A DNA stretch of 64,000 nucleotides from Paracoccaceae bacterium (GTDB lineage: Bacteria > Pseudomonadota > Alphaproteobacteria > Rhodobacterales > Rhodobacteraceae). The stretch's first letter is position 1. Every line of letters begins with the position of its first letter. The notes beneath the pieces were generated by a model, which was not told where the DNA came from, made no database searches, and saw nothing but the letters and a program-made list of their open reading frames with translations. The DNA is taken from positions 62,001 to 126,000 of the forward strand of contig JAFWNM010000028.1 in NCBI GenBank assembly GCA_017510335.1. Direction: 5' to 3'. Positions 3,147 through 32,456 of the stretch are shown here, in pieces. Made by a program: the position numbers and the translations under genes.

Positions 3147-3163
3147 GGGACAGGTCGCGCAGT

Positions 3164-3207
3164 CCTGATGGGTGCGTGCCTGTAGGGTGGGGCAGGCACC
3201 CGTCAGG
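3164..3207 (+). terminator. Hairpin ending the cob operon
   Basis: Arms CCTGATGGGTGCGTGC (3164-3179) and GCAGGCACCCGTCAGG (3192-3207) pair with one mismatch and one G-T pair around a 12-base loop, 18 bp after the cobF stop. No T-run follows, so it may stabilise the mRNA end rather than act as a classical intrinsic terminator. Confidence 0.5.
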
Positions 3208-3538
3208 GCAGGATGACCAGCATCAGGCGCCGGTTTTCAGTATGGGAACCATTTGTTGCACTGATGCGGCTGTTCGGCGCAGGGCGGGAAGGGAGCATAT
3301 CATTAAAAGTAAAGTAATTATAACAAATGTTTGTGTTAAAAATGAAGAAATACATTCAGAAAATGTGATTTTATGTTGCGACAATATGTCCCATGGGGTT
3401 AGGGTACTACAGGAAGGATCGGATCATGCGATCATGTCGCGCCACACATGGGGGACTACGCTGCACCAGTGCAGGTGTCCCCGAAAGGCCAGGCACGGCA
3501 TGGGGGCGTTCCGAGGGTGATGAACGGGAGAGAGGCAA
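3208..3538. other. Intergenic region upstream of sox, with AT-rich island
   Basis: No convincing gene is visible between the cob hairpin and soxY. Bases 3295-3385 are strikingly AT-rich compared with everything around them and contain a small palindrome at 3321-3338. A second short palindrome, CTGCAC-CA-GTGCAG, lies near 3461-3474. This is where a promoter and operator for the sox operon would be expected, and also where soxX stands in most sox clusters. No remnant of soxX was recognised. Confidence 0.5.
3321..3338. promoter_or_regulatory. Candidate operator upstream of soxY
   Basis: TAACAAATGTTTGTGTTA contains TAAC-N10-GTTA and, nested within it, ACAAA-TG-TTTGT. It lies in the AT-rich island about 200 bp before soxY. 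Which regulator binds is unknown; no soxR gene is in the window. Confidence 0.3.
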
Positions 3539-3955
3539 ATGACGTATTCACGGCGGCGCACCCTTGCGCTGGGCCTTGGTGGGCTTTTTGTGACGGTGGT
3601 TCCGATGCGCGTGTCGGCAGACGCGCAGGGGTTGATTGCCGCCTTCACTGGCGGGGCGGAGATTGTTGAGGGGGCGCTGCACATCACGGCGCCTGAAATT
3701 GCCGAGAACGGAAATGCGGTGCCTGTGACAGTGGCCTGTCCTGATGCGGTTTCCATTCGCATTCTGGCCCCTGCAAACCCCAACCCGGAAGTGTGCACAG
3801 TGCATTTCGGCCCGCTGGCGGGCAGCCATTCGGCGACAACGCGCATTCGCATGGCCGAAACCATGGATGTGATCGCCCTTGCAGAAATGCCTGATGGCAC
3901 GTTTGTTCAGGCAGCGGCGAATGTGCGCGTCACCATCGGGGGCTGTGGTGGCTAG
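3539..3955 (+). CDS. soxY: Sulfur-carrier protein SoxY
   Basis: This 138-residue periplasmic protein covalently carries the sulfur substrate on a C-terminal cysteine. The sequence ends VTIGGCGG, the diagnostic swinging-arm motif with Cys136 as attachment site. The N-terminus SRRRTLALGLGG is a twin-arginine signal, as expected for a protein exported folded, with cleavage probably near residues 27-28. The ATG at 3539 is preceded by a GAGAGAGG ribosome-binding site. It is first in the visible sox operon. In most sox clusters soxX precedes it; here only a non-coding AT-rich gap does. Confidence 0.95.
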   Translation: MTYSRRRTLALGLGGLFVTVVPMRVSADAQGLIAAFTGGAEIVEGALHITAPEIAENGNAVPVTVACPDAVSIRILAPANPNPEVCTVHFGPLAGSHSATTRIRMAETMDVIALAEMPDGTFVQAAANVRVTIGGCGG

Positions 3956-4038
3956 GGCGCGCCCCCCGGTATTGCCACCACAAGACACTGACAGGACCGG
4001 CCCCGTTGGCCTGTCGTCACTTACGAGGAGTATTGCCC

Positions 4039-4371
4039 ATGTCCGGTTTTGATGTCCGTCCCCGCGTCCGCGTTCCGCGCACCGCGTCTGTCGACGAGGT
4101 GGTTCTGGTGCGCACATTGATCAACCATCCCATGGAAAACGGTCACCGGGTGGATACGGACGGGAACATTGTTCCACGCCATATCATCAATCGGTTCACC
4201 TGCACCTTTAATGGTGAGACGGTTATTGAAATGGATATCGAACCCAGCCTGTCGGCAAACCCCTTCATTGAATTTGAGGCGCGTGTGCCGCAATCGGGTG
4301 AATTCGCCTTCACCTGGTTGGATGATGACGGGTCGATTTATGAAGATAGCGCCAGCATTACTGTAGCGTAG
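4039..4371 (+). CDS. soxZ: Sulfur-carrier partner SoxZ
   Basis: This 110-residue protein pairs with SoxY to form the SoxYZ carrier. It has no signal peptide of its own, consistent with co-export with the Tat-targeted SoxY. The beta-sandwich core is recognisable by VDEVVLVRTLINHPMENGHR and the C-terminal FAFTWLDDDGSIY. The ATG at 4039 follows the ribosome-binding site ACGAGGAG; an earlier in-frame start is not supported. Only 110 bp separate it from soxB, so the soxA gene usually found here is missing. Confidence 0.95.
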   Translation: MSGFDVRPRVRVPRTASVDEVVLVRTLINHPMENGHRVDTDGNIVPRHIINRFTCTFNGETVIEMDIEPSLSANPFIEFEARVPQSGEFAFTWLDDDGSIYEDSASITVA

Positions 4372-4428
4372 GCGGGGCAGGCGCGCCCGAAGCGGCGGCG
4401 CAGTTTCCACACATACCCGATTGCCGGT

Positions 4429-4447
4429 TGCGAAGGCACACTTCGCA
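4429..4447 (+). repeat. Short hairpin between soxZ and soxB
   Basis: TGCGAAG (4429-4435) and CTTCGCA (4441-4447) form a perfect 7-bp stem with loop GCACA. It lies in the spot where soxA is usually found. It could be an mRNA processing or attenuation structure, or a trace of the deletion. Confidence 0.35.
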
Positions 4448-4481
4448 GCCCTGGCCAGATATGCGCAAGAAGGAAGGTGCC

Positions 4482-6167
4482 ATGATTTCGCGGCGGGAAT
4501 TTTTTCAGGCGTCCCTTGCGGCCTCGGCCTTGATTGGCGCGCAGGGCGGCTGGTCGCGGCTGGCGGCACAGCAAAGCGTGCATCAGGATGATTTGCTGCG
4601 GTTTGACACGTTCGGGAATGTGTCGCTGATTCATATCACCGATATTCATGCGCAATTGAAACCTGTGTGGTTTCGCGAAGCGTCGGTCAAGCTGGGTGCG
4701 GCGCCGGTTCGGGGGCAACCGCCGCATCTGGTGGGGCAGGATTTTCTGGCGCATTACGGGCTGGACGCCACATCGGCAATGGCGCATGCGCTGACCCATG
4801 ATGATTTTGTCGCGCTGGGGCGCGCATATGGGCGCATGGGCGGTATGGACAGGGTGGCCACGATCATCAACGCCATCCGCGCCGACCGCCCCGATGCGCT
4901 GTTGCTGGACGGGGGCGATACATGGCACGGGTCCATGACGGCGCTGCGCAGCAACGGGCAGGATATGGTCAATGTAATGAACGCGCTGGGCGTGGATGCC
5001 ATGACCTCGCATTGGGAATTCACCCTTGGGGCGGACCGCGTGGATGAAATTGTGGCGGACCTGCCATTTGCGTTTCTGGGGCAGAATATCTTTGATACTG
5101 ACTGGAACGAGCCGGTGTATGACCCTTACCGCATGTTTGAACGTGGCGGGGTGCGGGTTGCCGTCATCGGGCAGGCATTCCCCTATACGCCCATTGCCAA
5201 CCCGTCCTGGATGTTTCCGGGCCTAAGTTTCGGCATACGCGAACAGCGCATGCAGGACATGGTCAACGAGGTGCGCGCGCAGGGTGCCGACCTGGTTGTG
5301 GTGTTGTCGCATAACGGGTTTGACGTGGACCGCCAGATGGCCGCGCGCGTGCAGGGCATTGATATTGTGCTGACCGGCCACACGCATGACGCCTTGCCCG
5401 AACCGTTGCTGGTTGGGCAAACGCTGCTGATTGCATCAGGGTCGAACGGCAAGTTCGTCACGCGGCTGGATCTGGATGTGCGCGACGGGCGCATGATGGG
5501 GTTTCGCCACAAGTTGATTCCGGTATTCGCTGATGTGATTGAACCGGATGCCGACATGGCCGCGTTGATTGACGCAGAACGCGCCCCCTACTTGGACGAG
5601 CTGACTGAAATTGTGGGCCATACCGACAGCCTGCTGTATCGGCGTGGCAATTTCAACGGCACCTGGGATGACCTGATCTGCAATGCCTTGATACAGGAAC
5701 GTGACGCCGAAATCGCGTTGTCGCCCGGTGTGCGCTGGGGGCCAAGCCTGATGCCGGGGGATGCGATCACCCGCGAAGATATCTATAATATGACCGCCAT
5801 GAGTTACGGGCAGGTGTACCGCCGCGAGATGACAGGCGCACAGTTGCACGGCGCGCTGGAAGATATTGCCGAAAACCTGTTCCACCCCGACCCTTATTTC
5901 CAGCAGGGCGGCGATATGGTGCGCGTGGGCGGGCTGGGCTACCGCATTGCCGTTGACGCGCCCATGGGGGAACGGATTTCAGGCATGGTGCATCTGGCCA
6001 GTGGTGATCCCATTGCGATGGACCGCGCCTATATGGTGGCGGGCTGGGCCAGTGTGAATGAAGGCACGCAAGGCCCGCAAATCTGGGATGTGGTGGAAAG
6101 CTATATTCGTGCGCAGGGCCGTGTCAGCGTGCCCGAAAACACAACAATCGAGGTGGTGACAGGTTAG
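4482..6167 (+). CDS. soxB: Thiosulfohydrolase SoxB
   Basis: The 561-residue periplasmic di-manganese enzyme hydrolyses sulfate from SoxY-bound thiosulfonate. The N-terminus SRREFFQASLAASAL is a Tat signal. Metallophosphoesterase motifs of the 5'-nucleotidase family occur in order: DIHAQLKP (54-61), GGDTWHG (144-150), SHWEF (176-180), LSHNGFD (275-281) and GHTHD (299-303). The C-terminal nucleotidase-like domain follows. The ATG at 4482 has a GGAAGG site just upstream, so the two earlier in-frame starts at 4428 and 4461 are less likely. Length is normal for SoxB. Confidence 0.96.
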   Translation: MISRREFFQASLAASALIGAQGGWSRLAAQQSVHQDDLLRFDTFGNVSLIHITDIHAQLKPVWFREASVKLGAAPVRGQPPHLVGQDFLAHYGLDATSAMAHALTHDDFVALGRAYGRMGGMDRVATIINAIRADRPDALLLDGGDTWHGSMTALRSNGQDMVNVMNALGVDAMTSHWEFTLGADRVDEIVADLPFAFLGQNIFDTDWNEPVYDPYRMFERGGVRVAVIGQAFPYTPIANPSWMFPGLSFGIREQRMQDMVNEVRAQGADLVVVLSHNGFDVDRQMAARVQGIDIVLTGHTHDALPEPLLVGQTLLIASGSNGKFVTRLDLDVRDGRMMGFRHKLIPVFADVIEPDADMAALIDAERAPYLDELTEIVGHTDSLLYRRGNFNGTWDDLICNALIQERDAEIALSPGVRWGPSLMPGDAITREDIYNMTAMSYGQVYRREMTGAQLHGALEDIAENLFHPDPYFQQGGDMVRVGGLGYRIAVDAPMGERISGMVHLASGDPIAMDRAYMVAGWASVNEGTQGPQIWDVVESYIRAQGRVSVPENTTIEVVTG

Positions 6168-6226
6168 CGCCTGAATGGAATTGCGACCCGCGGGGGGCGG
6201 GCCAACTGCTAGGGAGGACAGGGCAG

Positions 6227-7522
6227 ATGTCAGAAGAACTTACAGGCGGTGCCAGTGCTGGCGGGTCTGGCGCGACAAACAGGCGGGGGTTTTTGCGCGG
6301 CGCGGGGCTGGCGGGGGCCGGTCTGGTGGTGGGGACGGGGGCTGTGCGCGCAGCCTCGCCCGACCCGCTGATCACCGATGTGCAGCCTTGGGCGCAGTTT
6401 CTGGGCGACGGTGTGGATGCCGCCCCCTATGGCAAGCCATCGCGCCATGAAGCGCATGTTATCCGGCGCAATGTCGAATGGTTGACGGCGGACACATCCA
6501 GTTCCGTCAATTTCACGCCCATCCATGAACTGGACGGGATCATTACGCCCAATGGCGTGTGTTTTGAACGCCATCATGCCGGTGTCGCGGATATCGCGCC
6601 GCAGGATTACCGGCTTATGATCAACGGGTTAGTGGACCGCGAACTGGTGTTCACACTGCAAGACCTGTTGCGCCTGCCGCGCGAAAACCATGTGTATTTT
6701 CTGGAATGCGCGGCCAATTCCGGCATGGAATGGCGCGGGGCGCAGCTGAATGGCGCGCAGTTCACCCACGGGATGATCCATAACTGCATGTATACCGGCG
6801 TCACGCTGCGCACGCTTCTGAATGAAGCGGGTGTCAAGCCGCAAGGCAGCTGGCTTCTGGCCGAAGGGGCGGATGCATCGGCCATGTCGCGGTCCATCCC
6901 CATGGAAAAGGCGCTGGATGATTGCATGATCGCCTTCAAGATGAACGGCGAAGCGCTGCGCCCCGAACAGGGCTATCCGGTGCGGCTGATCGTGCCGGGC
7001 TGGGAAGGCAATATGTGGGTCAAATGGCTGCGCCGTCTGGAAGTGGGCGATGCGCCCTGGCACCACCGCGAGGAAACGTCGAAATATACCGACCTGCTGG
7101 CAGACGGGCGCGCGCGCCGCTTCACATGGGAAATGCATGCCAAATCGGTCATCACCAACCCAAGCCCGCAGGCCCCCATTCTGCACGGGCATGGGCCAAC
7201 TGTGATAACTGGCTTGGCATGGTCTGGCGTGGGCAAGATTGCGCGGGTGGATGTGTCTCTTGATGGCGGGCGCAACTGGGCACAGGCGCGGCTCAGCGGG
7301 CCAAGTTTCGACAAATCGCTGCACAGGTTCTATTTCGAATTCGACTGGGACGGGCGGGACTTACTGCTGCAATCACGCGCCATTGATGAGGCAGGCTATG
7401 TCCAGCCCACCAAATCCGCCTTGCGCGACTTCCGCGGGGTCAGTTCCGTGTATCATAACAACGGCATCCAGACATGGCATGTCCATTCCAACGGGGAGGC
7501 CGAGAATGTCGAGGTTTCTTAA
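6227..7522 (+). CDS. soxC: Sulfane dehydrogenase molybdenum subunit SoxC
   Basis: This 431-residue protein belongs to the sulfite-oxidase family and carries molybdopterin. With SoxD it oxidises the sulfane sulfur left on SoxY, releasing six electrons per sulfur. A Tat signal (TNRRGFLRGAG, Arg19-Arg20) fits export of a folded cofactor protein. The molybdenum-ligating cysteine is in FLECAANSGMEW (Cys161). The C-terminal dimerisation domain begins around residue 300. AGGGAGG precedes the start. The end overlaps soxD by 17 bp. SoxCD favours complete oxidation of thiosulfate to sulfate without sulfur globules. Confidence 0.95.
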   Translation: MSEELTGGASAGGSGATNRRGFLRGAGLAGAGLVVGTGAVRAASPDPLITDVQPWAQFLGDGVDAAPYGKPSRHEAHVIRRNVEWLTADTSSSVNFTPIHELDGIITPNGVCFERHHAGVADIAPQDYRLMINGLVDRELVFTLQDLLRLPRENHVYFLECAANSGMEWRGAQLNGAQFTHGMIHNCMYTGVTLRTLLNEAGVKPQGSWLLAEGADASAMSRSIPMEKALDDCMIAFKMNGEALRPEQGYPVRLIVPGWEGNMWVKWLRRLEVGDAPWHHREETSKYTDLLADGRARRFTWEMHAKSVITNPSPQAPILHGHGPTVITGLAWSGVGKIARVDVSLDGGRNWAQARLSGPSFDKSLHRFYFEFDWDGRDLLLQSRAIDEAGYVQPTKSALRDFRGVSSVYHNNGIQTWHVHSNGEAENVEVS

Positions 7523-8576
7523 ATCCGGTTTGCTCTGTGCGGGTGCCGCGCTGGTGGCCCTGCCTGCAATCGCGCAAAGCTCTGGTCTGGGGCGCGCGGC
7601 CTTGCCCGAAGAAGTTGCCGCATGGGATATTGACATCCGCCCCGATGGCGCGGGCCTGCCTGACGGGTCCGGCGATGTCTGGACGGGCGAAGAACTGTAT
7701 GAAGCGCAATGCGCCCATTGCCATGGCACCTTTGGTGAAGGGATGGGGTCCTGGCCCATGCTGGCGGGCGGGCAGGGCAGCCTGACGCATGAACACCCCC
7801 AGAAAACCATCGGGTCTTACTGGCCGTATCTGTCGACTGTGTGGGATTACGTCAATCGGGCCATGCCCTATGGTGCGGCGCAATCCCTGACACCGGACGA
7901 AGTGTATGCGATCACCGCCTATCTGATGTATCTGAATGATCTGGTCGATGATGACTTTGAATTAAGCCGTGATAATTTCGGGGATATTCGCCTGCCGAAT
8001 GAAGATGGCTTCTATCTGGACGACCGTGTGGCGCTGGAATGGCCGGTCTTTACCCAAGCGCCATGCATGAGTGATTGCAAACCTGATGTGCAGGTGACCA
8101 TGCGCGCAGCAGTGCTGGACGTGACGCCCGATGACCCGACCGCAGATGCGCGCCGCGCACAGGCGCGCGCAATGGCTGCGGCATCAGGTGGCGGGGATGC
8201 AGCAGCGTCAACGCCCGAAGTGGAACCTGATGAAGAAGCCAGCGCAGCCCATAGCCCCGAATTGATTGCACAGGGCGAAAGCCTGTATCGGGCGTGCCGG
8301 TCCTGCCATCAGGTGGGGGATGGCGCGCGCAATTCAGTCGGGCCAGTGCTGAACGGCATTCTGGGCCGCGTGGCAGGCCGCGTGGAGGGGTTTCGCTATT
8401 CACCGGCCTTGACCGGCGCGGGCGATGCGGGTTTGATCTGGACTGAAGACACAGTGTCGGATTTCATCGCGGACCCGCGCGGATACCTGCCGCGCAATCG
8501 CATGTCCTATGCGGGTTTGCGCGATGCGGATGAACGGCGCGCGCTGGTGGCCTATCTGTCCACCTATTCGGAGTAA
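7506..8576 (+). CDS. soxD: Diheme cytochrome c subunit SoxD
   Basis: The 356-residue electron-transfer partner of SoxC has two class-I heme sites, CAHCH (Cys69-His73) and CRSCH (Cys264-His268). They are separated by an Ala/Pro/Glu-rich linker at about residues 208-250 (SGGGDAAASTPEVEPDEE), typical of SoxD. The N-terminus SGLLCAGAALVALPAIAQ is a Sec signal. The start at 7506 lies inside the end of soxC, suggesting translational coupling. Electrons from SoxCD pass to soluble c-type cytochromes. Confidence 0.94.
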   Translation: MSRFLKSGLLCAGAALVALPAIAQSSGLGRAALPEEVAAWDIDIRPDGAGLPDGSGDVWTGEELYEAQCAHCHGTFGEGMGSWPMLAGGQGSLTHEHPQKTIGSYWPYLSTVWDYVNRAMPYGAAQSLTPDEVYAITAYLMYLNDLVDDDFELSRDNFGDIRLPNEDGFYLDDRVALEWPVFTQAPCMSDCKPDVQVTMRAAVLDVTPDDPTADARRAQARAMAAASGGGDAAASTPEVEPDEEASAAHSPELIAQGESLYRACRSCHQVGDGARNSVGPVLNGILGRVAGRVEGFRYSPALTGAGDAGLIWTEDTVSDFIADPRGYLPRNRMSYAGLRDADERRALVAYLSTYSE

Positions 8577-8582
8577 GGCGGG

Positions 8583-9323
8583 ATGCGGACCTACTGGTTA
8601 AAGGCAGCAGTGGTGGCAGGGGTGACCCTTGCCGCCCTTGGGGCGCTGTCGGCGCAGGCACAAACCGGCAGCGGTGCCGAACCCTTGGGGGATGCTGAAC
8701 AGGGCGCGGAGCTGTGGGACTATGAATGCGCGGCCTGCCATGAAATGGGGCGGGGTGCCGAAAACGGGATTGGCCCGCACCTGACCCGCGTTTACGGGCG
8801 GCGTGCAGCAGATGTGGACGGGTTCACCTATTCCGAGTCCATCGAACGCATGGGCCGCGACGGGTTGCGCTGGACGTTCCGCACCTTGGACGCCTATATC
8901 GAAAATCCCTATGCGCTGGTTTCGGGCACCCGAATGAGTTACCCCGGCCTGCCCGATGCACAGGACCGTGCGGACCTGCTGGCCTTTATCCGGCAATTTT
9001 CCGACATGCCCGGCAATATTCCCGAAGCCGAACCCACCGCGCGCCGCATCGAGATTGACCTGCCACCCGAAGTTCTGGCCATTCGCGGGGACAGGGAATG
9101 GGGCGAATATCTTGCCAGCGAATGCACGACCTGTCATCAACGTGATGGCGCGGCCGTGGGCATCCCATCTATAACCTATTGGCCGGAAGACCGTTTTGTG
9201 GTGGCAATGCACGCATATAAAGAAGGGTTGCGCCCGCATGCTGTCATGCAGAATGTGGCACGGCGGCTGGATAATGAGGAAATCGCGGCCCTTGCCGCCT
9301 TTTTCGCAACAATAGATGACTGA
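8583..9323 (+). CDS. soxE: Diheme cytochrome c SoxE
   Basis: The 246-residue periplasmic cytochrome has two CXXCH sites, CAACH (49-53) and CTTCH (181-185), and a Sec signal (VVAGVTLAALGALSAQAQ). The first half resembles a cytochrome c550-type domain (NGIGPHLTRVYGR, YSESIERM). The second half is shorter. Position after soxD and directly before soxF matches the SoxE/SoxF pair of Paracoccus, where the diheme cytochrome partners a flavoprotein resembling flavocytochrome c sulfide dehydrogenase. The next coding region begins 25 bp after its stop. Confidence 0.88.
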   Translation: MRTYWLKAAVVAGVTLAALGALSAQAQTGSGAEPLGDAEQGAELWDYECAACHEMGRGAENGIGPHLTRVYGRRAADVDGFTYSESIERMGRDGLRWTFRTLDAYIENPYALVSGTRMSYPGLPDAQDRADLLAFIRQFSDMPGNIPEAEPTARRIEIDLPPEVLAIRGDREWGEYLASECTTCHQRDGAAVGIPSITYWPEDRFVVAMHAYKEGLRPHAVMQNVARRLDNEEIAALAAFFATIDD

Positions 9324-9348
9324 GCACATCAGTAAGGGAGGAAACCTG

Positions 9349-10614
9349 ATGGACCTGAAACGACGCAGTATTCTGGGCAGCATGGCGGCAGGTGCCGCGC
9401 TTTTGTCCGCGCCCGCAGTGTTGGGCCAGACGCGCCCGCGCGTTGTGGTGATTGGTGGCGGGTCCGGCGGGGCCACAGCGGCGCGCTATATCGCGCGCGA
9501 CAGTCAGGGCGCGATCGACGTGACGCTGGTTGAACCGTCGCGCGTTTATTACACCTGCTACTTTTCGAACCTGTATCTGGGCGGGTTCTGGGAACTGGCG
9601 GATATGGGCCATTCCTATGGCACGCTGGCCGCGCGCCATGGCATAAATGTGGTGCATGACTGGGCCGTGGGCGTGGACCGCGACGCGCAGACTGTAACAC
9701 TGGCGGGCGGGGACACGCTGCCCTATGACCGGCTGGTGATTTCACCGGGTATTGATTTCCGCGAAGACAGCGTGCCAGGCTGGTCGGTGGCGGCGCAAAA
9801 CCGTATGCCGCACGCCTATAAGGCAGGCAGCCAGTCGGAGCTTCTGAAAGCGCAGGTGGAAAACATGCGCGAGGGTGGCACCTATTGCATGGTTGCGCCG
9901 CCAAACCCCTACCGTTGCCCCCCTGGACCCTATGAGCGGATTTCGATGGTCGCGCATGTGCTGTCGCAGACCAACCCGACCGCGAAAATCCTGATTGTGG
10001 ACCCGAAGGAAAACTTCTCCAAACAAGGTTTGTTTGAAGATGGTTGGGCGCGTCATTACCCCGGTATGATTGAACGTGTCGGCCCGGATTTCGGCGGCGA
10101 CATTGTGTCGGTCGATCCCGAAGCGATGACCGTGTCCATTGATGGCGTGGTGGAGAATGTTGATGTGTGCAATGTCATTCCGGGCCAGAAGGCCGGGCGC
10201 ATTGCCGAACTGGCCGGCATTACTGATGACAGCGGATGGGCACCTGCGGTTCCCGCGAATATGAAAAGCCGCATGGATGACAAGGTCTATATCCTTGGCG
10301 ATGCATCCGCGCAGGGCGATATGCCGAAATCCGGTTTCTCGGCCAATAGTCAGGCCAAAGTAGCGGCAAACTCCATCCGGCATGAACTGACAGATGCGCG
10401 CCTGTTCCCTGCACGCTATGCCAACACCTGCTGGTCGCTTATTGCCACAGATGACGGTGTGAAGGTGGGCGCATCCTATGAACCCACGGAAGAAAAGATT
10501 GCCAGTGTCGAAGGGTTCATAAGCCAGGTGGGCGAAGATGCCGATCTGCGCCGCCAAACCTATGAGGAAAGCATCGGTTGGTATAACGGCATAGTTGCCG
10601 ATATGTTCACCTGA
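9349..10614 (+). CDS. soxF: Flavoprotein SoxF (sulfide dehydrogenase-like)
   Basis: The 421-residue FAD protein is homologous to FccB, the flavin subunit of flavocytochrome c sulfide dehydrogenase. It has a Tat signal (LKRRSILGSMAAGAALLS), a dinucleotide-binding loop VVVIGGGSGGATAAR (about 32-46), and YYTCYFSNLYLGG, in which Cys70 matches the cysteine that covalently holds FAD in FccB. VYILGDASAQGDMPKSGFSA is the second FAD-contact motif. The ATG at 9349 follows AAGGGAGG, so an earlier in-frame start at 9316 is rejected. A hairpin ends the operon. Confidence 0.92.
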   Translation: MDLKRRSILGSMAAGAALLSAPAVLGQTRPRVVVIGGGSGGATAARYIARDSQGAIDVTLVEPSRVYYTCYFSNLYLGGFWELADMGHSYGTLAARHGINVVHDWAVGVDRDAQTVTLAGGDTLPYDRLVISPGIDFREDSVPGWSVAAQNRMPHAYKAGSQSELLKAQVENMREGGTYCMVAPPNPYRCPPGPYERISMVAHVLSQTNPTAKILIVDPKENFSKQGLFEDGWARHYPGMIERVGPDFGGDIVSVDPEAMTVSIDGVVENVDVCNVIPGQKAGRIAELAGITDDSGWAPAVPANMKSRMDDKVYILGDASAQGDMPKSGFSANSQAKVAANSIRHELTDARLFPARYANTCWSLIATDDGVKVGASYEPTEEKIASVEGFISQVGEDADLRRQTYEESIGWYNGIVADMFT

Positions 10615-16010: not shown

Positions 16011-16895
16011 ATGAGCACATTCAGGCTTCGCGCCACATCGGCCGCCATTGCCGCCATTTGTTTTGCAGGCGCGGCAACCGCGCAATCGGTGGCCGATGTT
16101 TGCCCCGCGCCGCTGCGCATGGCCGATACCGGCATCGAGGGGATGGGCGACCTTACAGAAGCCTTCGGCCCCTTTGCCGAAACCTTCGAGGAACTGACAG
16201 GCGTTGAACTGGCGCTTTACTCGCTGTCCAACCGCACTGCTGCGGGCACCGCGCTTCAATTCGACGAAGTTGAGTTTGTTTTTGCAGGGCCGTCCGAATT
16301 TGTGCTGTTCCAGCAACTGGCCGAAATGGACATCCTGTTTTCCATCGTGCGCCCGCATTACGGGTCCAGTTTCGTGGTCAAGGCCGACAGCGATATCCAG
16401 ACACTTGCAGACCTGAAGGGCAAGCGCGTCGCGCTGAAGGATGTGGGGTCGACTTCCGGCCATATTTTCCCGATGATGCTGATGGCCGATGCCGGGTTGG
16501 ACCCGGAACGCGACGCCGAAATCATCATGGCCGGGGATGCGCGCATTCAAGTGCTGATCAATGGCGATGTCGACGCGATGGGCGGCGGCAACAAGGACTG
16601 GGACGCCGTGCGCAGCCAGGACCCCGACACTGAATACCGGCTTCTGGCGCAAACCGACACCCTGCCGGGGGACCCGGTGGTGATGCGCGCGACCCTGCCG
16701 CAGGATTGCCGCGACGCGCTGCGCGCCACGCTGGCCGAACATGCCGATGAGCTTTGGGACAGCCTGACCGTAACGGATCGCAACGCCGACAAGTTCATTG
16801 AACGCGATGCCTATATGTCCTTCGAGACTGACCCTGCAATCTATGACGTCGTGCGCATGGCCTATGACGTCGCCGGTATTGCGCTGGACGATTGA
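16011..16895 (+). CDS. PhnD-type substrate-binding protein
   Basis: This 294-residue periplasmic protein has a clear Sec signal (SAAIAAICFAGAATAQS) and the PhnD/PtxB fold pattern: VEFVFAGPSEFVLF, LADLKGKRVALKDVGSTSGHIFP and GDVDAMGGGNKDWDAV. The GSTSGH loop is the anion-binding turn seen in binding proteins for phosphonate, phosphite or related oxyanions. It precedes matching ATPase and permease genes, so it forms a complete importer. No C-P lyase (phnGHIJ) or phosphite dehydrogenase gene is nearby, so the ligand stays open: phosphonate, phosphite or another organophosphorus anion. Confidence 0.82.
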   Translation: MSTFRLRATSAAIAAICFAGAATAQSVADVCPAPLRMADTGIEGMGDLTEAFGPFAETFEELTGVELALYSLSNRTAAGTALQFDEVEFVFAGPSEFVLFQQLAEMDILFSIVRPHYGSSFVVKADSDIQTLADLKGKRVALKDVGSTSGHIFPMMLMADAGLDPERDAEIIMAGDARIQVLINGDVDAMGGGNKDWDAVRSQDPDTEYRLLAQTDTLPGDPVVMRATLPQDCRDALRATLAEHADELWDSLTVTDRNADKFIERDAYMSFETDPAIYDVVRMAYDVAGIALDD

Positions 16896-16982
16896 CCCCG
16901 AACTCGGTTTCGTGACGGGCGGCCACCCTTCGCGGTGGTCGCCCTTCTCCATGAAATGGCCATAACACAGAAAGCTTGCCCA

Positions 16983-17768
16983 ATGACATCAGCCATTACA
17001 TGCCAGAACGTGCGCGTTGGTTATGGCCCCCTGAATGTTCTGCGTGGCGTGTCTTTTGACATTCCCGTGGGTCAAGGGGTGGTGTTGCTGGGGGCGAATG
17101 GTTGTGGAAAGTCCACTTTGATGCGCAGCCTGAACGGGCTGGAAAAACTGCAATCAGGCAAGATCATTATCCATGGCGCCAGCCTGACAGATGCCACACG
17201 CCGCGATTTACGCCAGATCAGGCGCGGCATGGGCTATGTGTTTCAGCAATTCAACCTTGTGCCACAACTCAGCGCTTTTCAGAATGTGCTTCTGGGGGCG
17301 ATGGGGCGTCACAGGTTGGGAATTCTGGCTTGCCTTGGGCTGACTGCCCCCGCAGGCGAACGCGCGCGCGCCATGGCCTGCCTTGAGCGTGTGGGCATGG
17401 CGGATCGCGCGCGCCACCGCCCCACGGAATTGTCGGGCGGCCAGCAACAGCGCGTGGCCATCGCCCGCATGCTGATGCAGGCGCCCAAGGTCGTGATTGC
17501 CGACGAACCCATCGCAAGCCTGGATCCCAAGGCCGGGCGCGAGGTTCTGGATCTGCTGTGGCAGATCGTGCGCGAAGAAGGACTAAGCATGCTGTGCACG
17601 CTGCATCAGCTTGATCTGGCACAGGAATATGCCGACCGCATCATCGGCATGAAGGCAGGGCGGGTAGAAATTGACGCCGCCATTGCAGACACGGACATGA
17701 CGCAGATGAATGCGCTTTACAGCGGCATGACCCGCGTGGATGCCCAACCTACCGGAGAAGCCGCATGA
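16983..17768 (+). CDS. PhnC-type ABC transporter ATPase
   Basis: This 261-residue ATPase has Walker A GANGCGKST, Q-loop in YVFQQFNLVPQLSAFQNVLLG, signature LSGGQQQRVAIARML and Walker B VVIADEP, followed by the family-typical SLDPKAGREVLDLL. The segment LGAMGRHRLGILACLGL is characteristic of phosphonate/phosphite importers (PhnC/PtxA). The ATG at 16983 gives the usual PhnC length; an earlier in-frame start at 16935 would add a non-conserved extension. The stop overlaps the permease start (ATGA, 17765-17768). Confidence 0.88.
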   Translation: MTSAITCQNVRVGYGPLNVLRGVSFDIPVGQGVVLLGANGCGKSTLMRSLNGLEKLQSGKIIIHGASLTDATRRDLRQIRRGMGYVFQQFNLVPQLSAFQNVLLGAMGRHRLGILACLGLTAPAGERARAMACLERVGMADRARHRPTELSGGQQQRVAIARMLMQAPKVVIADEPIASLDPKAGREVLDLLWQIVREEGLSMLCTLHQLDLAQEYADRIIGMKAGRVEIDAAIADTDMTQMNALYSGMTRVDAQPTGEAA

Positions 17769-18556
17769 GCAAGGCACCATCCATTCCCCCGCGCTTTCGT
17801 GCGCCATCCGCACTGACATGGGTGTTGGTGGTGGGGTTTGCTGCGTTCTTCATTCAGGGGCTGATCGCGTCGAACATATCGATTGACCGGCTGGTGCGCG
17901 GGGCCAACAACCTTGTGCGCTTTATCGGGCAGGCGGTGCCGCCTGACTTTTCGCGCGCGCCCAATATCGCAGATGCCATGTTGGAGACGCTGAATATCGC
18001 AATTGTGGGCGTCACTTTCGGGTGTCTGCTTTCGATCCCGCTTGCCTTGCTGGCCGCGCGCAACACTGCACCCAATGCCATGATCCGCACATTGGCACGG
18101 TTCATCATTTCAGTATCGCGCACTGTCCCGGACCTGATCTGGGCGCTGATTTTTGTTGTGACTGTCGGGCTGGGGCCGCTGGCCGGTATTCTGGCCATCA
18201 TCATGGACACAATCGGCTTTGCCGCGCGTTTTTATTCAGAACGGTTCGAGGAAGTCCAGAAAGGCCCGTCAGAGGCGCTGACCTCCACAGGTGCAGGCCG
18301 CTTGTCGGTCATCTTCGGGGCCATCCTGCCCGAAAGCTTCGCATCCATGACCGCAACATCGCTGTTCAGTGTAGAAAAGGCGATCCGGTCAGCGGTGACG
18401 CTTGGGCTTGTGGGTGCGGGCGGCATTGGCGTGGAACTGTCAACCGCCATGCGCCTGTTCCGCTATGATCAGGCGGCCGCGATTATCCTTGTCATTCTTG
18501 TGGTCGTGATTGTGTTCGAACACATATCGTCAAGCATTCGAAAGCGGATCATCTGA
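17765..18556 (+). CDS. PhnE-type ABC transporter permease
   Basis: This 263-residue inner-membrane protein has about six hydrophobic helices and the BPD_transp_1 coupling region with EALTSTGAGRLSVIFGAILPE, where the EAA-loop meets the ATPase. IADAMLETLNIAIVGVTFG and SRTVPDLIWALIFVV match PhnE/PtxC. Only one permease gene is present, so it probably works as a homodimer. It ends the three-gene transporter operon and is followed by 433 bp without a recognisable gene. Confidence 0.87.
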   Translation: MSKAPSIPPRFRAPSALTWVLVVGFAAFFIQGLIASNISIDRLVRGANNLVRFIGQAVPPDFSRAPNIADAMLETLNIAIVGVTFGCLLSIPLALLAARNTAPNAMIRTLARFIISVSRTVPDLIWALIFVVTVGLGPLAGILAIIMDTIGFAARFYSERFEEVQKGPSEALTSTGAGRLSVIFGAILPESFASMTATSLFSVEKAIRSAVTLGLVGAGGIGVELSTAMRLFRYDQAAAIILVILVVVIVFEHISSSIRKRII

Positions 18557-23637: not shown

Positions 23638-24498
23638 TCACTCGCGCAGGTTTTCGGCCACCAGCGCCAGCGTATCGGCGGGCACAAAGCCGCGCAGGAA
23701 TTCGGTTTCCATGATGAAGCTGGGCGTGCCGCTGATTTGCAGACGTTGGGCCAGCGCGCGGTTTTCGGACAGAATGGTGGTGATGTCGTCATCATTGAGC
23801 ATCGCCAGCACCGCGTCACCGTCCAGGCCCAGATCCACCGCAAGATCGGTCAGCATGTCGGGGCTGTAGCGCCCCTCATACTGGATCAGGGCGGAATGCG
23901 CGGCGCCATAGGCGTCATCCCCGGCCAGTTTCTTGACTGCAATTGCAAAGCGCGACGCCAGTTCCGATTCTGGGCCAAGGATGGGGAATTCCTTGATGAT
24001 CAGGCGCACATTTCCGTCCTGTTCCAGAAAGTCTGTCACTTCGGGATAGGCGCGTTTGCAAAAACCGCACTGATAATCCATGAATTCCACAAGTGTCAGG
24101 TCCCCGTCAGGGTTGCCGCCGACCCATGAATACCCGTCATTGAAGATTTCGTCATAATTGGCATCAATCAGCGCAAGGTCCATACCGGCCTGCGATGCAG
24201 TGTTGCGCATTTCATATTCGGCCACGGCTTCGAAAATGACTTCGGGGTTTTGCAACAGGTAGCTGCGCACCTTCTCGCCGAATTCGGCATCGACTGCGAT
24301 TGTGTCGGGCAGGGGTTGTGCGCCCAGTTGCGCCAGTGCCGCATCTGCGGTGTCGGGTTGGGTGGAGGTGGTTGCCTCTGTTTGCGCGGGTGTGTCCAGC
24401 GGGGCGGACCCGCCGGCGCTGGACAATACCAGAACCCCAAGGGCCGCCGCCGCCATGCAGGTTCCGATAAGGGCGGTGTCGGTCACGGGAAGGGTCAT
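23638..24498 (-). CDS. DsbA-like thiol oxidoreductase
   Basis: This 286-residue protein has an N-terminal membrane anchor or signal (about residues 9-29) followed by a Pro/Thr/Ala-rich linker (about 30-60). A leading helical part is followed by a DsbA/ScsC-type thioredoxin fold with active site CGFC (144-147) in VEFMDYQCGFCKRAYPEV, and the cis-proline loop SGTPSF. It should act in the periplasm on disulfide formation or isomerisation. The helical N-terminal segment before the fold is seen in trimeric Com1/BdbD-like members. It is transcribed alone, with its own terminator. Confidence 0.85.
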   Translation of the reverse strand: MTLPVTDTALIGTCMAAAALGVLVLSSAGGSAPLDTPAQTEATTSTQPDTADAALAQLGAQPLPDTIAVDAEFGEKVRSYLLQNPEVIFEAVAEYEMRNTASQAGMDLALIDANYDEIFNDGYSWVGGNPDGDLTLVEFMDYQCGFCKRAYPEVTDFLEQDGNVRLIIKEFPILGPESELASRFAIAVKKLAGDDAYGAAHSALIQYEGRYSPDMLTDLAVDLGLDGDAVLAMLNDDDITTILSENRALAQRLQISGTPSFIMETEFLRGFVPADTLALVAENLRE

Positions 24499-31379: not shown

Positions 31380-32456
31380 ATGCCGGTGACAATCAATGAC
31401 CTGATCAGGCTAAGCGGGGCTGGTGTGGACACCGGAAGTTTCCGCACAATTTTCGGATATAATCCCGACCCTGCGCAATCAGATCTGCTGGGCGTGCTGG
31501 ACGGGGTGGAATTTGAACGAGCGCCCGGCACCGTCGACCAGTCACTGCCAACGGGGTCGACCACCATTATTGACGGCGTTGAATACGAACTAAGCGAAGT
31601 CTACAATTTCTGGGGCGGTTTTACGAAAATTGACCCAGATACGGGTGAAGGCTTCACGCAGTTCGGCCAGACGATCGCTTTCACATTGACCGCAGCGGAT
31701 GGGTCTGAGCTGTCCTTCATTTCGCCCAGTGACAATTTCAACCCTGATAGCCCTTGGGTTCCTGGCGAAATACAATCCATCGAAGTTGCGTCCACACCGA
31801 CGGTTGAAACCGCCATCACCGAAGGCAGCGATGGCGAGAATAAACTGAGCGGTGATGATGATGTTACCGTGCCATGCTTCGTCGCGGGCACGCTGATCGA
31901 CACAGCGCAGGGGCGCAGACCCGTGGAGCAGATCATGGCGGGCGATCTGGTCATGACCCGTGACAACGGTTACCTGCCGGTCGTTTGGGCCGGATCGCGC
32001 GATTTGACCCAGGATGAGATTGACCAGAACCCAGACTATGCCGCCGTCATCATTCGTGCTGGCGCGCTTGGGGACGGGATGCCGCAGCGCGATTTGCGTG
32101 TGTCACCATGGCACCGCATTTTGATAAGCGGACAGCGCGCGGAACTGCTGTTTGGTGAACATGAGGTTCTTGTTCCTGCGCTGCATCTGGTAGGTCAGGC
32201 CGGAATTGAACGTGACCATGCGCCAGTAAGCTATGTGCATGTGATGTTCACCTCTCATCAGATTATCCGCGGCGAGGGCGCTTGGAGCGAGAGTTTCCAG
32301 CCCGGACAAAAAACCCTTGGCGGCATGGATGACAGGCAGCGCGCGGAATTGCTGGCGCTGTTTCCGGAACTGGCCAGCATGTCTGGGCAGGATGCCTATG
32401 CTGCGGCGCGTTTGACGCTGAAAGAAAGCGAAGTGCGCGCCTTGATGGCCGCCTGA
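31380..32456 (+). CDS. Hint-domain protein
   Basis: This is a 358-residue protein with no Sec signal. The first 160 residues are acidic and rich in Gly/Asp/Thr, resembling the adhesin-like or RTX-like fronts found on secreted alphaproteobacterial proteins. The second part is a Hint (hedgehog/intein) domain: it starts VPCFVAGTLIDTAQGRRPVE with the catalytic-type Cys166, then DLVMTRDNGYLPVVWAGSR, LRVSPWHRILISGQRAELLFG and HVMFTSHQIIRGEGAWSESF. The family can cleave its own peptide bond at the Cys. Such genes are common in Rhodobacterales but their function is unknown. Export by a type I system is possible; no exporter is adjacent. Confidence 0.85.
   Translation: MPVTINDLIRLSGAGVDTGSFRTIFGYNPDPAQSDLLGVLDGVEFERAPGTVDQSLPTGSTTIIDGVEYELSEVYNFWGGFTKIDPDTGEGFTQFGQTIAFTLTAADGSELSFISPSDNFNPDSPWVPGEIQSIEVASTPTVETAITEGSDGENKLSGDDDVTVPCFVAGTLIDTAQGRRPVEQIMAGDLVMTRDNGYLPVVWAGSRDLTQDEIDQNPDYAAVIIRAGALGDGMPQRDLRVSPWHRILISGQRAELLFGEHEVLVPALHLVGQAGIERDHAPVSYVHVMFTSHQIIRGEGAWSESFQPGQKTLGGMDDRQRAELLALFPELASMSGQDAYAAARLTLKESEVRALMAA

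Follow-up and report, generated by a model that had tools for sequence, protein, structure and literature searches.

Recurrence and constraint of a sox core without SoxXA in Roseinatronobacter and its relatives

How is a Sox sulfur-oxidation system fed when its loading enzyme is missing? In the textbook model SoxXA attaches thiosulfate to the carrier protein SoxY, and the Sox cycle is considered unable to run without it. The stretch of DNA analyzed here, 64 kb from a Paracoccaceae bacterium (hereafter the window), carries on its plus strand, from 3539 to 10614, a sox cluster made up of soxY, soxZ, soxB, soxC, soxD, soxE and soxF, without soxX and soxA. An earlier note on this DNA had the coordinates and the gene order right, as well as the 110-bp gap between soxZ and soxB, which separates the soxZ stop at 4371 from the likely soxB ATG at 4482. 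We find that this Sox core lacking both soxX and soxA (XA-less, as opposed to XA+) is real, recurrent and constrained. Two congeners, G284 and G289, serve repeatedly for comparison below; G289, an assembly of six contigs, we infer to be Roseinatronobacter sp. S2, for which a complete genome has been published. The features of the locus are listed here, with dN/dS standing for the ratio of nonsynonymous to synonymous substitution rates.

3348..3391, plus strand: conserved non-coding block 5' of soxY, probably a promoter or operator; nearly identical in the window, G284 and G289
3539..3955, plus strand: soxY, sulfur carrier with C-terminal GGCGG; TIGR04488, 127.5 bits (cut-off 125), arm Cys136 kept
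4039..4371, plus strand: soxZ, carrier partner, start codon uncertain; TIGR04490, 99 bits (cut-off 76)
4372..4481, no strand: soxZ-soxB gap, by synteny the site of soxA in XA+ relatives; no soxA remnant in permissive tblastn
4482..6167, plus strand: soxB, thiosulfohydrolase; TIGR04486, 820.4 bits (cut-off 550), dN/dS 0.055 against S2
6227..7522, plus strand: soxC, molybdenum subunit of sulfane dehydrogenase; TIGR04555, 624.2 bits (cut-off 420)
7509..8576, plus strand: soxD, cytochrome subunit of sulfane dehydrogenase, with a putative start; follows soxC, cytochrome c domain, two CXXCH motifs
8583..9323, plus strand: soxE, diheme cytochrome c; cytochrome c domain, two CXXCH motifs, 89% identity to S2
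9352..10614, plus strand: soxF, flavoprotein of the flavocytochrome c sulfide dehydrogenase type; SQR-type (sulfide:quinone oxidoreductase) models below cut-off, dN/dS 0.03

SoxY, SoxZ, SoxB and SoxC were named by NCBIfam cut-offs, and SoxD, SoxE and SoxF by gene order and similarity. A cytochrome (SoxE) and a flavoprotein (SoxF), candidate subunits of a flavocytochrome c sulfide dehydrogenase, are both in the locus, but no model specific to that enzyme passed. SoxF is 96-97% identical to its counterparts in S2 and G284, and SoxB is 94% identical to that of S2.

The earlier note had further stated that soxA and soxX are missing and that soxRSVW are absent at the locus, and both statements were borne out. 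No match to soxR, S, T, V, W, X or A was detected at E <= 1e-4 in the 64-kb window, and a 19.9-kb record reaching approximately 7 kb further upstream (L087) gave none with T, R, V, W, X and A queries. When seven SoxA, seven SoxX and seven SoxW queries were run against the 64 kb by tblastn at a permissive E <= 1, the best E value was 0.017, and none of the five best rows lay in the soxZ-soxB gap or in the stretch preceding soxY. In the whole genome to which the window belongs (G000; 3.61 Mb, 43 contigs, 99.99% complete), the SoxA profile TIGR04484, the SoxA/TsdA Pfam family PF21342 and a 206-aa SoxX protein from a congener each returned 0 matches. The SoxX profile returned a single match, on contig C10, with 24.9 bits against a cut-off of 61; for comparison, the SoxD and SoxE of the window score 25.6 and 20.2 bits with the same profile, and true congener proteins score 91.9 (SoxX) and 239 (SoxA). 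Fourteen named control genomes had no SoxA match, and a search of the family therefore served as the positive control: TIGR04484 found matches in 157 of 248 family genomes, 154 of them over cut-off. SoxXA is thus absent from the window genome, within the sensitivity of the profiles.

We examined the same genes across 38 genomes of the genus, taken as Roseinatronobacter in the wide sense on the basis of its named relatives and of the passages available from PMC11092380; the named relatives are Natronohydrobacter thiooxidans (L007, in the same place as G292) and a Roseinatronobacter sp. (L009). SoxB was present in 27 of the 38, over cut-off in 25 and split over two contigs in each of the others (G269 and G282). 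SoxA occurred in 15 genomes, every one of them SoxB+, to which the PF21342 matches were confined as well, and SoxX in 17, namely those 15, G266 (83% complete) and, as a fragment, G268 (71% complete). Twelve of the 27 SoxB+ genomes, the window genome and 11 congeners, were without both SoxA and SoxX, and in all 12 a single contig carries soxV or cobF, soxY, soxZ and at least part of soxB without a break. The comparison of soxZ-soxB synteny that the earlier note had proposed places soxA between the two genes in XA+ relatives and finds it absent in these 12.

The XA-less loci of the genus take two forms. In type I, found in the window, G284 and G289 among the genus genomes and in one record outside the 38 (L006), soxYZBCDEF stands beside cobF, except in L006. 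In type II, found in nine congeners, the cluster follows soxV, and W, X and A are gone. The YZBCDEF set is intact in both types wherever the contig spans it. SoxB trees separate types I and II as two clades with support of 100 each; the branch leading to type I is about 0.5 long, and type II is nested among XA+ congeners. Loss of X and A from the XA+ order would need at least two deletions, because Y and Z sit between them. The block at 3348..3391 is embedded in DNA that differs between the window, G284 and G289, and by eye it resembles a block found ahead of soxX in XA+ congeners, with a counterpart before soxY in type II loci. The V-Y gap of type II contains a conserved non-coding block, and no replacement gene was recognized among the open frames of five loci. 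An apparent soxX remnant in L023 (E 1.4e-7) was not counted, as the match covers only the upstream block, translated in an over-extended SoxX query.

Comparison of the window with G284 or S2 gave dN/dS values of 0.03-0.11 for all seven genes, indicating purifying selection, and the XA+ pair L007/L009 gave similar values (0.045-0.113; Y, Z, B and C only). The GGCGG arm was present in 90 of 90 SoxY rows. Near-invariant columns were defined on 73 XA+ rows (70 for SoxC); the window retains 43/51 of them in SoxY, 30/36 in SoxZ, 241/255 in SoxB and 190/191 in SoxC. SoxD and SoxE keep 70/70 and 68/68 columns, along with two CXXCH motifs each, which are likewise kept in XA-less loci, although their reference set counted some XA-less duplicates as XA+, whereas those of SoxY, SoxZ, SoxB and SoxC were clean. 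Besides the arm cysteine, type I SoxY has Cys67, seen in 0 of 73 XA+ rows, and Cys86, seen in 14 of 73; these two may form a disulfide or provide a second reactive thiol. The predicted structure of SoxY had a mean pLDDT (predicted local distance difference test) of 81.5.

Gene co-occurrence was scored in 76 loci with more than 5.5 kb on either side, 63 XA+ (one of these rows, L141, being a decayed locus) and 13 XA-less; the window falls below this flank filter and is therefore outside the 76, and it is also without soxW. SoxV, SoxW, SoxS, SoxR and SoxT were named by gene order and similarity. SoxW was present in 62 of the 63 XA+ loci and in none of the 13 XA-less loci. The corresponding counts were 62/63 versus 8/13 for SoxS, 63/63 versus 6/13 for SoxV, 61/63 versus 5/13 for SoxR and 62/63 versus 4/13 for SoxT, these four being rarer in XA-less loci partly because loci that moved left that block behind. 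SoxC and SoxD were found in 63/63 versus 12/13, SoxE in 38/63 versus 11/13 and SoxF in 42/63 versus 11/13. SoxW was missing from all eight XA-less loci that kept SoxS and from all six that kept SoxV. Fisher tests that ignore kinship gave p values of 9e-14 for SoxW and 4e-4 for SoxS, a protein described as protecting SoxYZ in the passages available from PMC10451225; with independent pairs, nearly every pairing showed SoxW differing in five of five (p 0.0625 by sign test, the minimum for five pairs). The joint absence suggests that the thioredoxin SoxW serves SoxXA.

The earlier note had held that without SoxXA the system cannot start on thiosulfate. This agrees with the textbook model, but Roseinatronobacter sp. 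S2, which was isolated on polysulfide, is reported to oxidize thiosulfate to sulfate (PMC10508151). Because the core is intact and constrained, no loader gene is detectable and the absence of XA recurs in relatives, the system is probably fed in another way, and the note's second proposal, another loader, becomes the better branch. On balance we favor, with modest confidence, a working Sox core that would be charged from persulfide, polysulfide or sulfur delivered by a rhodanese; feeding from sulfide or persulfide would be a plausible route. Sulfane sulfur would be carried by SoxYZ on the GGCGG cysteine of SoxY, SoxCD would oxidize the bound sulfur to a sulfonate, and SoxB would hydrolyze this to sulfate, as in established Sox chemistry, except that the first sulfur would arrive on SoxY already as sulfane sulfur. 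Its source could be persulfide or polysulfide made by SoxEF and by an SQR-type flavoprotein with a Tat signal, and/or periplasmic rhodaneses that take sulfur from thiosulfate and leave sulfite for another enzyme. SoxW, SoxX and SoxA would then form a module for thiosulfate loading that can be detached from the rest, and SoxYZ, SoxB and SoxCD would be a core able to run alone. A broader proposal is that the W-X-A module was lost as a unit, that SoxW is the thioredoxin of SoxXA, and that the sulfane core of Roseinatronobacter, running alone, is fed from thiosulfate via a periplasmic rhodanese and from polysulfide via SQR or SoxEF, so that thiosulfate oxidation is complete without SoxXA; we offer it tentatively and think it rather doubtful that all of it holds.

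Candidates for these sources are encoded in the window genome, with signal peptides judged by eye. They include a flavoprotein of the SQR type (L204:4205-5536), which has a Tat-like signal and scores 205 bits with a type III SQR model against a cut-off of 525, a small signal-bearing rhodanese (L205), and a two-domain rhodanese that bears a signal and is encoded next to a Sulf_transp (YeeE-type) transporter (L203:3071-5193, contig C12). The last two genes recur in the same arrangement in S2 (L207:2040-4167) and look like a sulfur transfer and import pair. TsdA was rejected as a substitute loader, given that PF21342 matches only the 15 SoxA+ genomes of the 38. As a separate observation, the SQR-type gene with the Tat signal has a small gene after it that looks alike in L023 (1894-3760) and in L204 (4205-5978), where Pfam assigns it to DUF5368, and in G287 this pair lies within approximately 6 kb of the sox cluster.

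Several points weigh against a core charged with sulfane sulfur. The higher frequency of SoxF among XA-less loci is not significant (Fisher p 0.32), so an enrichment of SoxEF is unsupported. Matches to SQR-type and rhodanese domains were found in nine of nine genomes searched, five XA-less and four XA+, and neither protein is thus specific to XA-less genomes. Type I SoxY and SoxZ are more changed than SoxC in their near-invariant columns, and SoxYZ itself may be altered. The thiosulfate physiology of S2 is one sentence of PMC10508151 that cites another paper. In the reconstituted Paracoccus system, sulfur-loaded SoxYZ still needed SoxAX, which the authors of PMC5336275 leave without an explanation, and according to those from PMC11582611 thiosulfate oxidation in Hyphomicrobium is impossible without SoxXA and SoxYZ.

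Other explanations have to be set against the same evidence. That soxXA lies elsewhere in the genome, as the earlier note had also allowed, or in an assembly gap, might be argued from the 43 contigs and the weak match on C10; the SoxD domain alone, however, outscores that match, the genome is 99.99% complete and yielded no SoxA, no PF21342, no SoxX protein match and no SoxX over cut-off, and the same absence is seen in 11 congeners, including the six-contig G289. Within the reach of the profiles we therefore reject relocation, and we regard this explanation in either form as extremely improbable; an assembly error in the soxZ-soxB gap, which the note had raised, is ruled out because the same cobF-soxYZBCDEF locus occurs in G284 and G289. 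Decay of the locus, with XA lost first and the rest to follow, would fit the long branches of several XA-less SoxB proteins, and it does occur in the family: the XA+ relative G191 shows it, and G054 retains YZB only. The seven window genes are nevertheless open and constrained, and type I in three and type II in nine genus genomes have YZBCDEF intact where the contig covers it, which makes decay very unlikely here.

Two further explanations concern the handling of thiosulfate. Another cytochrome, whether SoxE, SoxD or an unrelated one, might have replaced SoxXA and still join thiosulfate oxidatively to SoxY. The thiosulfate oxidation reported for S2 and the weak SoxX-profile scores of SoxD and SoxE lean in this direction, but the completeness of their near-invariant columns and CXXCH motifs gives no sign of a new role, so the changed role of SoxE suggested in the earlier note found no sequence support; nor is there a SoxA/TsdA-type domain in the window genome, in which other cytochromes were not surveyed. 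We judge such a replacement quite unlikely. Somewhat less improbable, though still unlikely, is that thiosulfate is handled outside the Sox core, by cytoplasmic import or tetrathionate formation, and that sulfide or polysulfide is all that the core works on; a simple disulfide exchange with tetrathionate might also load SoxY. The adjacency of the YeeE-type transporter to a rhodanese is in line with import, and available passages report that tetrathionate-treated SoxYZ gave conjugates, likely including SoxY(SSO3)Z (PMC5336275), and that Ney Springs cistern fluid holds 400 mg/L tetrathionate (PMC12198100). Against it stand the Hyphomicrobium result and the absence of TsdA from the window genome by PF21342, a search that did not extend to DoxDA or tetrathionate hydrolase.

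Beyond the genus, SoxB (E <= 1e-100) was found in 159 of 248 family genomes, 10 of which lacked SoxA. YZBCDEF was present in five of these 10, the window genome, G011, G017, G172 and G235, so that four sampled genomes of other genera carry complete XA-less loci; among the rest, G029 is without EF, G054 has YZB only, and in G069 and G220 the locus runs into a contig end. A soxX remnant lies ahead of soxY in G235, and in L142 the remnant before soxY has no open frame carrying CXXCH. In the decayed XA+ locus of G191 (L141), soxB is interrupted by a stop and soxA is reduced to a fragment, the other sox genes being recognizable. The XA-less locus of G172 (L140) has low third-position G+C and the order S-Y-Z-C-D-B, with F and E on the opposite strand; its SoxB is very divergent (branch 2.45), and the locus perhaps represents a different XA-less lineage. 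A 100-row SoxB tree required at least five changes of XA state, all five forced by well-supported branches; as the tree gives no direction and has several long XA-less branches (0.5 to 2.45), we are unsure of the number of losses. In this tree and in the 76 loci scored for co-occurrence, the XA+ rows were mostly chosen by similarity to the window SoxB and the XA-less rows of other genera were sought deliberately, so proportions among the rows are not those of a random sample; the genus count (12/27) and the family count (10/159) are independent of that choice.

Like the canonical Sox systems of Paracoccus pantotrophus and Rhodovulum sulfidophilum, the window has soxYZBCDEF arranged in the standard way, which XA+ relatives also show, with SoxYZ bearing the GGCGG arm cysteine and with SoxB and SoxCD; unlike them, it has no SoxX, SoxA or SoxW and no R, S, V or T at the locus, and it lies beside cobF. 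Truncated Sox systems without SoxCD, such as that of PMC9959259, likewise lack one enzyme, but it is the opposite half, since the window lacks the loader and has the sulfane dehydrogenase. The closest parallel by description, no sequences having been compared and the SoxB trees containing no SAR116 sequence, is SAR116 subclade II/III, which has soxCDBYZ without soxAX, together with the flavocytochrome c genes fccAB (PMC12262181, passages available). The window genome shares the presence of soxCDBYZ and the absence of soxAX from the genome. In those passages the authors propose sulfane or sulfide-derived sulfur as the substrate and infer no thiosulfate oxidation, whereas S2 is reported to oxidize thiosulfate; SAR116 also belongs to another order, and here the absence of XA recurs within one family, with SoxW gone too. 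For S2 itself, in which G289 has cobF-soxYZBCDEF, PMC10508151 lists SoxBCDYZ, Sqr and FccB, and the missing soxXA goes unremarked. The passages available from PMC8781829 list Elioraea tepida with soxBCDYZ and do not comment on soxXA, and those from PMC6704655 ascribe partial Sox sets in soda-lake Roseinatronobacter metagenome-assembled genomes to incompleteness; our results indicate that such partial sets can be real. Searches of open-licence papers on absent soxXA and incomplete Sox sets, in which most of the papers listed were not opened, showed us no description of XA-less Sox in Rhodobacterales as real, or of W-X-A co-loss. The kind is thus already known from SAR116, and what is added is its recurrence in Rhodobacterales, the W-X-A co-loss and a culturable strain. 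A constrained natural core that lacks SoxXA, occurring in a genus of which one cultured strain is reported to oxidize thiosulfate to sulfate, makes the SoxAX requirement directly testable, and surveys by soxB or soxY alone may miscount organisms as SoxXA-type thiosulfate oxidizers.

The sox cluster is flanked on its 5' side by cobB and cobF, both over the cut-offs of their family models, with a gene between them that resembles cobA by look (no profile scan), and on its 3' side by a TetR gene and an RND pair. Elsewhere in the window, genes for a DsbA/ScsC-like periplasmic thiol protein (23638-24498) and a Hint_2-domain protein (31380-32456) showed no visible link to sox. A phosphonate/phosphite-type ABC transporter, comprising a PhnD-like binding protein, a PhnC-like ATPase and a PhnE permease, is encoded 3' of the RND operon at 16011-18556.

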